Source: an uncultured Granulosicoccaceae bacterium (lineage in GTDB: Bacteria > Pseudomonadota > Gammaproteobacteria > Granulosicoccales > Granulosicoccaceae). From it: 64,000 nt of DNA. Made by a program: the position numbers and the translations under genes. Under the pieces are notes generated by a model that saw nothing but the letters and a program-made list of their open reading frames with translations, had not been told where the DNA came from and made no database searches. The stretch is from NCBI GenBank assembly GCA_937951345.1, contig CALFCF010000043.1, forward strand, positions 1-64,000, given 5' to 3'. Each line of letters begins with the position of its first letter. Position 1 is the first letter of the stretch. Positions 14,403 to 44,406 of the stretch are shown in pieces.

Positions 14403-14430
14403 CGTTTCATTTAAAACAACCGATCCATTT

Positions 14431-14607
14431 CAAAGTGGGTGCATAGACTGTTGCACCGCGTTTGCGACGGCGATGGAATCCCTCAACAGAATGCCATTCT
14501 TTACCTGAAATCTGATCAACTCAAGCGGCTGCCCGAGCGCAAACTCGCCTTTTCCAGACAAATCAATGTATTAATAGAGTAAATGCAACAGTCTATGCAG
14601 TCACTTT
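14431..14607. mobile_element. MITE-like element, copy A
   Basis: The 176-bp core (14432-14607) matches the element at 42333-42508 in length and at roughly nine in ten positions by hand alignment. The ends are 24-base inverted repeats matching at 22 positions (aaagtgggtgcatagactg at the left). There is no coding capacity. The flanks cgatccattt (14421-14430) and gggtccgttt (14608-14617) agree at 7 of 10 bases, consistent with an eroded target duplication. It lies between birA and coaX, and the right flank overlaps the last bases of birA. Confidence 0.8.
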
Positions 14608-14615
14608 GGGTCCGT

Positions 14616-15509
14616 TTAGGCCATGGGGTGCGACAGCGATACCTCACCGGCAGCAAATGATCTAACCGACCCCGCGATTTCAACCAGCAGATTACCGTTA
14701 TCGGCTACACCACGCGCGATACCGACGACACGCTGTGTTCCGTGACTGACAGAAACCGTATGCCCATGTAACGCATCCAATGCAGCAAACCGCGGTGCAA
14801 ACTTCTGCCAACCCGAGTGTTGAAACTCATCGATGGTATGAAGCACATCGGCTATCAGACTTCCTATCAACTTTTCCCGGGGCGGTAGTGGCATCGGTTC
14901 AAAAGTGACAGCGTCGAGTTGCTCATCGTTTGCTGTTAGGTGATTTAATTCGTCCTCCCTTAGCAACTGCTCAAGCGTGACCAGGGGTCGATCGAGCAAC
15001 TGAGTCAGCTCATCAAAGCCGCTAAAGTTAACTCCGATTCCGATAATCAGAACCGTTGTCCCTCCTGCGTTGCCGGGCGATTCAATCAGAATGCCGCTTA
15101 ATTTGCGATCGCCTGCCAGCACATCATTCGGCCACTTCAACGTCAACTGTTGACGCACGATGGTTTGCAGACAACCGATCACCGCCGTGCCGATCGCCAG
15201 GCTAAGCCCGCCCAACTGACCCAACTCGGTATCAAGCGGCACCCGGATTGAGAACGTGATGCTTTGACCCGGTGACTGCCAGCTGCGACCCTGTCGCCCG
15301 ACACCGGCTGTCTGTACATCTGCCACACAGGCACAGATTGCATCAGTTTGCCCGGAATGACGGTATTGCTCCATCAGATAACGATTAGTCGAGGGCAATT
15401 CAAGGAAGTAATCAATTACCGGGGCATCGTCCGAAGCAAGCGCTAAATCTGTCGTTTCATGCACATTCATTCGTTCAACAAACGCTGAAAGTATGTTTTC
15501 TACAACCAT
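14616..15509 (-). CDS. birA: Biotin-[acetyl-CoA-carboxylase] ligase, short form
   Basis: About 297 residues. It attaches biotin to the BCCP subunit of acetyl-CoA carboxylase. Ligase motifs are in order: LELPSTNRYLMEQY, the biotinyl-AMP loop GVGRQGRSWQSPGQS (the GRGRRGR equivalent), LKWPNDVLAGDRKLSGILIE and IGIGVNFSG, then a C-terminal SH3-like domain (GIARGVADNGNLLVEIAG). The N-terminal helix-turn-helix of E. coli BirA is missing, so it is not expected to repress biotin genes. ATG 15509 is chosen because AGG lies about 7 bases upstream and because longer forms would overlap the divergent nitroreductase gene. Confidence 0.9.
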   Translation of the reverse strand: MVVENILSAFVERMNVHETTDLALASDDAPVIDYFLELPSTNRYLMEQYRHSGQTDAICACVADVQTAGVGRQGRSWQSPGQSITFSIRVPLDTELGQLGGLSLAIGTAVIGCLQTIVRQQLTLKWPNDVLAGDRKLSGILIESPGNAGGTTVLIIGIGVNFSGFDELTQLLDRPLVTLEQLLREDELNHLTANDEQLDAVTFEPMPLPPREKLIGSLIADVLHTIDEFQHSGWQKFAPRFAALDALHGHTVSVSHGTQRVVGIARGVADNGNLLVEIAGSVRSFAAGEVSLSHPMA

Positions 15510-40903: not shown

Positions 40904-42274
40904 ATGCACGATCGCAACAGACGAAAGTTTCTGTCGCTAGGTGTTAAAACACTTTGCGGCGCCGGACTGGCCATGGGCGCAAGTCCTTGGCACACACTGA
41001 CAAACACAGCAAGAGCTGACAGTGTCAGTAACGATTACCGGGCATTGGTATGCATCTACCTCGAAGGTGGTATGGACGGCTTCAGCCTGCTTGTCCCTGA
41101 TGCTGATGCCGAATATAGCGAGTACACAAATTCGCGCAGACACTTATCAGTTGGACGCAGCGACCTTATCAGTCTGCCGATGCGAAACTCAAATACCGTA
41201 TCTGCAGGTTTACATCCTCAATGCGCGTCAATATCCAATCTGTACAACGAAGGCAGACTGGCTTTTGTTGCCAATGTCGGCACGCTGATCGAGCCGACCA
41301 CGCGCGAGCAGTTCGAATCCAGAAGCGTCAGATTACCCAGCCAGCTATTCTCGCACTCCGACCAGGAGATTCAGTGGCAACAACTGCAAGGCCAGACTTC
41401 GACAACGGAAGGCTGGGGTGCCCTTGCTGCACGCGAGTTGGCCAAAGATCAGGAGCGTGACTACCTGACCTCTGTATCACTTTCCGGGGCCAACTACTGG
41501 CAGGCTAGTAGTGAACAACGTCCGTTCAGCGTACGCTCAAGCGGACTGGTGCAATACGCAGGTATGAGCGACGGTACAGAATGGCAACAACCCCGAGTCG
41601 ACAGCTTCAGACACATCAACAATCAGAATTACTCACATGCGTTCATGCAGGCATACGCTGATTTACAAAGCCGCGCGGGCGACATTACCAGCGAACTCGG
41701 CGCTGTACTGGCTGATCAACCCGATCCCGCTACACCATTACCACCGGCAAACCAGCTGGCAGAACAGTTACGCATGGTCGCCCGGCTAATTGCCGCGCAA
41801 CCGGTACTTGGTATGCGGCGACAAATTTTTTACGTCAGCATGGATGGATGGGACGTTCACGACAATCAAAACAAGAACCAACCGTATTTGTTCCAACAAC
41901 TCGCGGATGCCATGGCTTACTTTCAATCGAGTGTTGATGAACTGGGTATGGGCGATCAGGTAACAACGTTTACTGCATCGGATTTCGGCCGTAGCCTGAC
42001 CAGTAACGGTGACGGGACTGACCACGGGTGGGGCAATCATCACATGGTGATGGGTAGTGCAGTTGAAGGTGGCGATATCTATGGTCGCATACCGCGCATG
42101 TCCACAGACGGCCCGGACGCGGTGCGCAACGGTCGTATCGTTCCAACACTTTCGGCATCACAGTACGCTGCTACAGTGTTGCGCTGGGCCGGTTTGAACG
42201 ACGGGTCACTAAACAACATTCTGCCTGACCTCGGCAACTTCTCGCAGCAAGATCTTGGATTCCTTAGAGCCTGA
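40904..42274 (+). CDS. DUF1501 protein with Tat signal
   Basis: 456 residues. The N-terminus carries a twin-arginine signal (NRRKFLSLGVK) with a hydrophobic stretch and a cleavage region near TARADS. The mature part matches DUF1501, a sulfatase-like fold: ALVCIYLEGGMDGFSLLVPD, the LFSHSDQEIQWQQLQGQ region, FYVSMDGWDVHDNQNKNQ and TASDFGRSLTSNGDGTDHGWGNHHMVMG. The conserved Asp/His residues suggest metal binding. Likely exported folded by Tat to act with the DUF1800 lipoprotein. A MITE-like element begins about 58 bases after the stop. Confidence 0.88.
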   Translation: MHDRNRRKFLSLGVKTLCGAGLAMGASPWHTLTNTARADSVSNDYRALVCIYLEGGMDGFSLLVPDADAEYSEYTNSRRHLSVGRSDLISLPMRNSNTVSAGLHPQCASISNLYNEGRLAFVANVGTLIEPTTREQFESRSVRLPSQLFSHSDQEIQWQQLQGQTSTTEGWGALAARELAKDQERDYLTSVSLSGANYWQASSEQRPFSVRSSGLVQYAGMSDGTEWQQPRVDSFRHINNQNYSHAFMQAYADLQSRAGDITSELGAVLADQPDPATPLPPANQLAEQLRMVARLIAAQPVLGMRRQIFYVSMDGWDVHDNQNKNQPYLFQQLADAMAYFQSSVDELGMGDQVTTFTASDFGRSLTSNGDGTDHGWGNHHMVMGSAVEGGDIYGRIPRMSTDGPDAVRNGRIVPTLSASQYAATVLRWAGLNDGSLNNILPDLGNFSQQDLGFLRA

Positions 42275-42331
42275 AACAGGCAGTCCGAAAGCCGGCGGCA
42301 TTGCCTGCCGGCTACTCCCAGATAACCCTTC

Positions 42332-42508
42332 CAAAGTGGGTGCATAGACTGTTGCACCTTTTTTAGAACGGCGATGGAATCCTTCAATAGAATGCCTTTC
42401 TGCACCTGAAATCCGACCAAATCAAGCGGCTGCCCGAGTGCAAACTCGCCTTTTCCAGGCAAATCAGTGTATTAATAGAGTAACTGCAACAATCTATGCA
42501 GTCACTTT
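42332..42508. mobile_element. MITE-like element, copy B
   Basis: A non-coding element whose 176-bp core (42333-42508) has 24-base inverted ends matching at 21 positions. It is flanked by a perfect 10-base direct repeat ataacccttc (42322-42331 and 42509-42518), a strong sign of transposition. It matches copy A at 14431-14607 in length and at about 157 of 176 positions by hand. No transposase is present, so it would need one encoded elsewhere. The 10-base duplication excludes families with 2-5 base duplications. It lies 57 bases after the DUF1501 stop. Confidence 0.88.
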
Positions 42509-42518
42509 ATAACCCTTC

Positions 42519-43305: not shown

Positions 43306-44406
43306 ATGTCCATTCGCAAAAAACTGCTTGGGGCTGCTGCTCTTGGCGTATTTTTGCTGGCAAACATGCCGGCAAATGCTGCAACAACCATCAAGATTCA
43401 GTCGGTGCTTAGCAACAAAGCCGACGAGATCGTGATGCTCAAAGATTTCGCTGAAACAGTTTCACGACTCACTGAAGGCGAAGTTAACTTCGAAATCCTG
43501 CCAAACAACTCTGTTGTACCTGGCGCCGAGATCATGAATGCAGTCGACAAAGGCTTGCTTGATGGCGGCTTTGCCTGGACTCACTACTGGTCGGGTATTC
43601 ATCCTGCAGCAATGCTGTTCGGATCACCTGTGGCAGGTGCTGGTGTTGGTATCGACAACATCGCGTTCATCTCATGGTTTCAATTCGGTGGTGGCCAGGA
43701 ACTATACGATCGCCTCTGGGGTGAAATGGGTCTTAATGTTAAAGGCTTCATGCTGCAACCGGTTGGCCCGGAAGCACTGGGTTGGTTCAAAGAGCCAATC
43801 GAAAGCATGGACGATTTCCGCAAACTGCGCTTCCGTACACCGCCGGGTATCCCGGGTCAGACGTACAACGACATCGGTGTAGCGGCTGTTGCAATGGGTG
43901 GCGGAGATATTCTACCTGCACTTGAAAAAGGTACCATCGACGCAGCCGAATGGTGTTGCCCGAAACCTGACAGCGTATTCGGCTTCCAGAAGGTTCTGAA
44001 GCACTACTATCTGCAGGGCCTGCACCAGGTTGTTGTTAATGCTGACCTTTACCTCAATCTTGATGTATATAACAAGCTGACTCCGTTGCAGCAGCAAATT
44101 ATTCAAACTGCAGCCGATGCGTCACTCATGAAAGCAATCAGCTATCGCATTCTTGAAAACGGTAAAGCGTTGAAAAAGCTGACCACCGAAGACGGTGTCA
44201 TCTTGCACGACACACCGGCAGACTACTTCACTGAGTACATGGCAGCAGCCAATGCTACGCTGGAGAAGAATGCAGCGGAGAATGAGTTCTTCTCTGAAGT
44301 ATGGGACTCAATGAAAGCGTTTGCTGAAGATGCCGTACCGTTCTGGGCAGGCGCGCAAACGTCAAATGCAGCACTTGGCAACGCATTCGCCAAGTCACTG
44401 AAGTAA
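43306..44406 (+). CDS. TRAP transporter solute-binding protein
   Basis: 366 residues with a signal peptide ending ANA-ATT. The family fold is evident: IKIQSVLSNKADEIVMLKDFAETV, NNSVVPGAEIMNAVDKGLLDGGF, SMDDFRKLRFRTPPGIPGQTYNDIG and ALEKGTIDAAEWCCPKPDSVFGFQ. The DAAEW stretch and the overall length match the large (FcbT1/TakP-like) class that binds organic acids such as keto acids or aromatic acids. The ribosome site GGAGGA is strong. A terminator follows the gene, so this abundant periplasmic protein is likely expressed above the membrane subunits. Confidence 0.92.
   Translation: MSIRKKLLGAAALGVFLLANMPANAATTIKIQSVLSNKADEIVMLKDFAETVSRLTEGEVNFEILPNNSVVPGAEIMNAVDKGLLDGGFAWTHYWSGIHPAAMLFGSPVAGAGVGIDNIAFISWFQFGGGQELYDRLWGEMGLNVKGFMLQPVGPEALGWFKEPIESMDDFRKLRFRTPPGIPGQTYNDIGVAAVAMGGGDILPALEKGTIDAAEWCCPKPDSVFGFQKVLKHYYLQGLHQVVVNADLYLNLDVYNKLTPLQQQIIQTAADASLMKAISYRILENGKALKKLTTEDGVILHDTPADYFTEYMAAANATLEKNAAENEFFSEVWDSMKAFAEDAVPFWAGAQTSNAALGNAFAKSLK

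Follow-up and report, generated by a model that had tools for sequence, protein, structure and literature searches.

A 178-bp MITE family with 9-bp target duplications and its probable IS1-like parent element in a Granulosicoccaceae genome

The 178-bp element that lies downstream of the DUF1501 gene, named copy B, is in all probability (we estimate about 0.92) a non-autonomous MITE moved in trans by the transposase of a co-resident IS1-like element, with a 9-base stagger at the target. The stretch of 64,000 nucleotides analyzed here, referred to as the window, corresponds to C43:1-64000 of a source genome of 4.49 Mb in 115 contigs, which was searched. This explanation is favored because the genome contains 23 full-length copies, 13 of them with recognizable 9-bp duplications and all with ends that are, over the family, conserved compared with the core, as well as an insertion sequence (IS) with matching ends. 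It is further favored because this IS carries an IS1-like transposase, because the MITE occurs in none of 114 other genomes and the birA-coaX site is empty in both congeners, and because a parallel with 9-bp duplications has been published (PMC6382973). Counted against it are a parent built from contig ends with unpaired duplications, the many absent or imperfect duplications of the MITE, and an empty site that could not be aligned for copy B. In the proposed mechanism, the IS1-like transposase, supplied in trans, would recognize both 25-bp ends of the MITE, cut the target with a 9-base stagger, and join the element in; repair of the gaps would then leave the target duplicated on both sides. 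The features of the two copies of the window are listed in Table 1.

Table 1 Coordinates of the MITE copies, their parts, and the neighboring genes in the window.
Feature	Position	Strand	Description
MITE copy A	14431..14608	+	178 bp, between birA and coaX
Copy A left flank	14422..14430	.	GATCCATTT, 7/9 match to right flank
Copy A right flank	14609..14617	.	GGTCCGTTT
DUF1501 gene	40904..42274	+	stop 57 bp ahead of copy B
Target duplication, left	42323..42331	.	TAACCCTTC, 9 bp
MITE copy B	42332..42509	+	178 bp, terminal bases included
Copy B left terminal inverted repeat	42332..42356	+	25 bp, CAAAGTGGGTGCATAGACTGTTGCA
Terminator-like hairpin (42338-42359) and T run	42338..42365	+	consensus match only; 64 bp past DUF1501 stop
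Copy B core	42357..42484	.	128 bp
Copy B right terminal inverted repeat	42485..42509	-	25 bp
Target duplication, right	42510..42518	.	TAACCCTTC, 9 bp
DctP-type solute-binding protein gene	43306..44406	+	next confirmed gene downstream of copy B

The sequence-only reading had recognized copy B as a non-autonomous MITE belonging to a repeated family, and the source-genome search bears this out, with 23 full-length copies, most of them exactly 178 bp long, in addition to partial or decayed ones. Copies A and B have the same length, and a recount returned the previously estimated 157 identities over 176 inner positions (158/178 when the terminal bases are included). The 19-base MITE end occurs four times in the window, against 0.02 occurrences expected from shuffles. 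Across the copies, the inverted ends are conserved at 95–96% and the core at 77%. The pairwise identities extend from 53 to 98% and define distinct subfamilies, the cores of which are about 55–75% identical to each other. We infer that these subfamilies are old lineages whose ends have been maintained by ongoing transposition. In copy B, the inverted arms (42333-42356 and 42485-42508) measure 24 bp and are 88% complementary. A coding role for the core was rejected in view of the absence of any reading frame conserved between copies and of changes that are even across the codon phases. The following features by which a MITE is recognized are present: short repeated units devoid of a transposase gene, inverted ends, a duplication of fixed length, and an autonomous partner with the same ends.

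Several copies of the family show particular arrangements. L018 and L021 (G000:C18:45862-46222), which are 98% identical, form a tandem pair with one 9-bp flank in common, in the order element, GGGTTACTG, element, GGGTTACTG. L005 (G000:C30:29237-29416) bears the CCC/GGG-type sequence at both ends, which suggests exchange or conversion between ends. A decayed MITE-like copy (L039:1088-1270, G000:C68) has retained recognizable ends around a different core.

The autonomous IS for which the earlier reading proposed to search by the MITE end was found just outside the window. Matches restricted to the ends led to the contig ends C73, C43, C106, C100, and C22, and an element of 1077 bp with one long reading frame could be built from two overlapping contig ends. 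C43 also carries a partial copy of it at 79294, past the end of the window and 37 kb downstream from copy B. The 25-bp ends of this parent agree in sequence with those of the MITE, GGG-type with GGG-type and GAC-type with GAC-type, and the left repeat of copy B is identical at 24 of 25 positions to the parent end on the 3′ side of the transposase gene. Comparison of the flanks across the contig ends gave no pairing for the duplications of the IS itself.

The parent transposase, about 310 residues in length, is encoded by one long frame and contains a zinc ribbon, an HTH motif, and an RNase H-like fold. It exceeds the cut-off of NF050000, the profile of the IS1/IS1595-type zinc-binding N terminus (33.4 bits versus 28), and similarity to the IS1 profile is observed in all 10 aligned members. 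The transposase of the source genome reaches 50.6 bits with the IS1 profile NF033558, below its cut-off of 100, and the parent is therefore named IS1-like and not a member of the IS1 family. The zinc ribbon and HTH preceding the RNase H-like catalytic domain are features in common with the IS1 family (NF033558), to which the 9-bp duplication, seen here for the MITE, may be added; the profile score (51 against 100), the single frame of about 310 residues, and the probable nature of the third catalytic residue set it apart. The predicted fold lies closest to ISCth4, an IS transposase of solved structure, and to retroviral integrases; its strands and helices follow one another in RNase H-like order, and D112 and D191 are invariant. 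N237 is also invariant and sits where it is expected, on the next helix, while the equally invariant E224 falls in a low-confidence loop of the predicted structure (both residues in the transposase L031:1042-1932). The third catalytic residue may be an Asn (D-D-N) and not a Glu.

Beyond the ends, the MITE and the parent IS share no match longer than 9 bases, and the 128-bp core is unrelated. The sequences point to a transposase that would move the MITE and to a core that would not derive from this IS. An internal deletion in an older relative of the IS could also have produced the MITE, with a core of eroded IS sequence in place of foreign DNA enclosed by two IS ends. Such an origin is consistent with the end asymmetry, which mirrors that of the IS counterpart to counterpart, and the divergence of the cores between subfamilies could have erased an ancestral match; in view of the missing similarity past the ends, we consider it possible but rather unlikely.

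The MITE was absent from the 114 other genomes searched, including two congeners. In both congeners birA and coaX are directly adjacent and the copy A site is empty, and the spacer of copy B is too diverged for alignment in congener G002. Granulosicoccaceae relatives display scattered one-mismatch matches to the end motif only. An IS fragment of a congener has kept the outer CAAACTGG, whereas farther inward its end is not preserved; the MITE ends therefore fit the IS of their own genome in particular. Relatives of the transposase, about 40–52% identical over most of its length, are found in other Granulosicoccaceae, with a few fragmentary matches elsewhere, and the named matches come from Granulosicoccaceae MAGs and one Bdellovibrionales MAG. 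Spread by plasmids was rejected, since neither the MITE nor the transposase matched plasmids. In viral contigs, a 16-base end pattern retrieved more than 120 stretches, nearly all single matches, which we judged to be as expected of a short pattern in so large a collection.

It is very unlikely that these elements are repeats of the host that have kept a role as RNA or DNA (as terminator, 3′-UTR hairpin, or REP-like repeat) and have spread by selection and not by insertion. The intergenic location of the copies near gene 3′ ends, the long hairpin with its low folding energy (z −2.9), and the one terminator-like site in copy B would fit such a function, but the inverted ends account for the low folding energy, and the target duplications, the conserved ends with a drifting core, the matching IS, and the absence from the congeners all speak against it. 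No compensatory base pairs were found in the MITE, and an RNA function was rejected on this ground. The sole Rfam match, SNORD82 (E 0.069), was far under the gathering score and was judged to be due to chance.

Copy B is bracketed by ATAACCCTTC, present at 42322-42331 and again at 42509-42518, which had been read as a perfect 10-base target duplication. The duplication is indeed perfect, but it spans 9 bp: copy B itself ends with the A at 42509, and the A at 42322, which extends the match beyond the left duplication, is held to be a coincidence. When the 23 full copies were aligned by their ends, flank matching appeared at a spacing of nine and formed a plateau of nine positions, with 0.48–0.70 per position against about 0.17–0.35 outside. 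The tenth base belongs to the inverted repeat, because the outermost C/G recurs over the copies (C in 19/23 left ends and G in 15/23 right ends); both ends of the parent IS also start with C. The outermost base of the right repeat is A in copy B and G in most copies, and the flanks of copy B are a perfect 9-bp duplication plus one base that matches by coincidence after the change of the terminal G to A. Duplications of 9 bp are typical of IS1. An IS4- or ISAs1-like parent making 10-bp duplications, as the sequence-only reading had suggested, would agree with the ten identical bases around copy B and is extremely improbable, given the spacing and extent of nine over 23 copies and an element with matching ends whose transposase is IS1-like, with no Pfam or NCBIfam match to an IS4 or ISAs1 domain at E values up to 10.

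A recognizable 9-bp duplication, defined as 6 of 9 or better, flanks 13 of the 23 copies, compared with 11/506 (2.2%) mismatched flank pairs, and 10/23 copies are without one. Ten of the 13 recognizable duplications are imperfect, with 1–3 mismatches, some of them in copies that are only 3–7% diverged. Copies A and L003 differ at 6/178 positions, yet have two and three mismatches in their duplications, and a similar excess is seen for L014/L015 (9 differences) and L008/L013 (93% identical). Mutations acquired once the element was in place are not an easy explanation for these mismatches; error-prone gap repair, gene conversion among the elements, or a rearrangement next to them may have caused them. 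The most frequent mismatch has A on the left and G on the right (8 to 1, in a small sample). The target itself approaches GAANNNTTC and is palindromic in a loose sense. A swapping of flanks among copies was discarded as the cause of lost duplications, with only 11/506 cross pairs reaching 6/9. Since mismatches occur in little-diverged copies, a perfect duplication is a poor clock here. Copy B had been suggested to be the younger insertion; it retains 9/9 duplicated bases against 7/9 for copy A, but its divergence from the closest members of the family exceeds that of copy A, and the data do not establish this age order.

All MITE copies are intergenic save one uncertain case. The 3′ end of a gene lies at 60 bp or less in 15/23 copies (p ~2e-5 versus the intergenic positions of the window) and within 13 bp in 8/23 (p ~6e-5); ten of the neighboring genes were confirmed by Pfam. 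Selection against promoter damage could explain part of this bias. Terminator hairpins were rejected as the target, as the joined sites have no common hairpin at the insertion point. In the IS copies of relatives, the stop of an open frame is situated −2 to +4 bases from an element end in 20 of 29 cases versus about 6% expected, in a test devised after the pattern had been seen and using simple open-frame calls in draft genomes. Often the stop codons of full-length neighboring genes abut these copies to within a few bases at both ends (L066-L109, L277-L296). Comparison with homologues indicates that three genes flanking the IS (encoding HisC, an HDOD protein, and a dehydrogenase) end at their natural stop or 1–2 residues off. 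At the hisC site, a sister species has a 24-bp convergent gap that is mostly missing beside the IS, and in the closest relative examined, the dehydrogenase gene was not found next to the second gene that flanks the IS. A scan of the relatives' IS copies for duplications of 2–12 bp detected none clearly over background. The sole exception to the absence of duplications is the tandem IS pair L272/L284 (G022:C24), the two members of which are about 94% identical and are each followed by TTAAGCAAGCCAG, a perfect repeat of 13 bp. The location of the IS at stop codons is a lead that fits either gene-end targeting or recurrent deletions, driven by the IS, that reach as far as the stop codon. We tentatively suggest, at well below even odds, that the IS1-like clade and the MITE are positioned by stop codons, by insertion or by later trimming through IS-driven deletions, ending exactly at the stop of a full-length gene, and that the duplications become altered or disappear during insertion or shortly thereafter.

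The closest published parallel, for which the same mode of movement has been described, is the MITEAba12/ISAba12 couple of Acinetobacter (PMC6382973). MITEAba12 is a 113-bp element with 16-bp ends and a highly conserved sequence, its identity to ISAba12 is limited to the terminal repeats, its length is nearly constant, and 9-bp duplications are present in 40% of the copies; the ends of ISAba12 are of the GGCTTTGTTGCACAAA type (PMC6382973). The MITE described here is likewise short and non-autonomous, with 9-bp duplications in part of the copies, end-only identity, and near-constant length, whereas it differs by its 178 bp, 25-bp ends, strongly diverged cores, and IS1-like parent. The SMN1 and SM3A MITEs of Sulfolobus also need the transposase of an IS resident in the same host, their parents being ISC1733 and ISC1058 (PMC3718332). 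The short non-autonomous MITE studied here resembles them in having a co-resident IS as the candidate transposase source, and differs from them in parent, in the archaeal nature of their hosts, and, as far as PMC3718332 shows, in sequence.

The MITE is thus new in sequence and ordinary in kind. Its analysis corrects the length of the duplication as well as the family of the parent, and illustrates how a single copy can mislead when a mutated end base is mistaken for part of the target. With it, a MITE family rich in copies is linked to an IS1-like clade that has been little described and is nearly confined to one bacterial family among the genomes searched. If the placement by stop codons is true, the genomic positions of this group of insertion sequences would be determined by where reading frames end, and it would offer a testable case of gene-end target choice or of spacer erosion by an IS to the last dispensable base.
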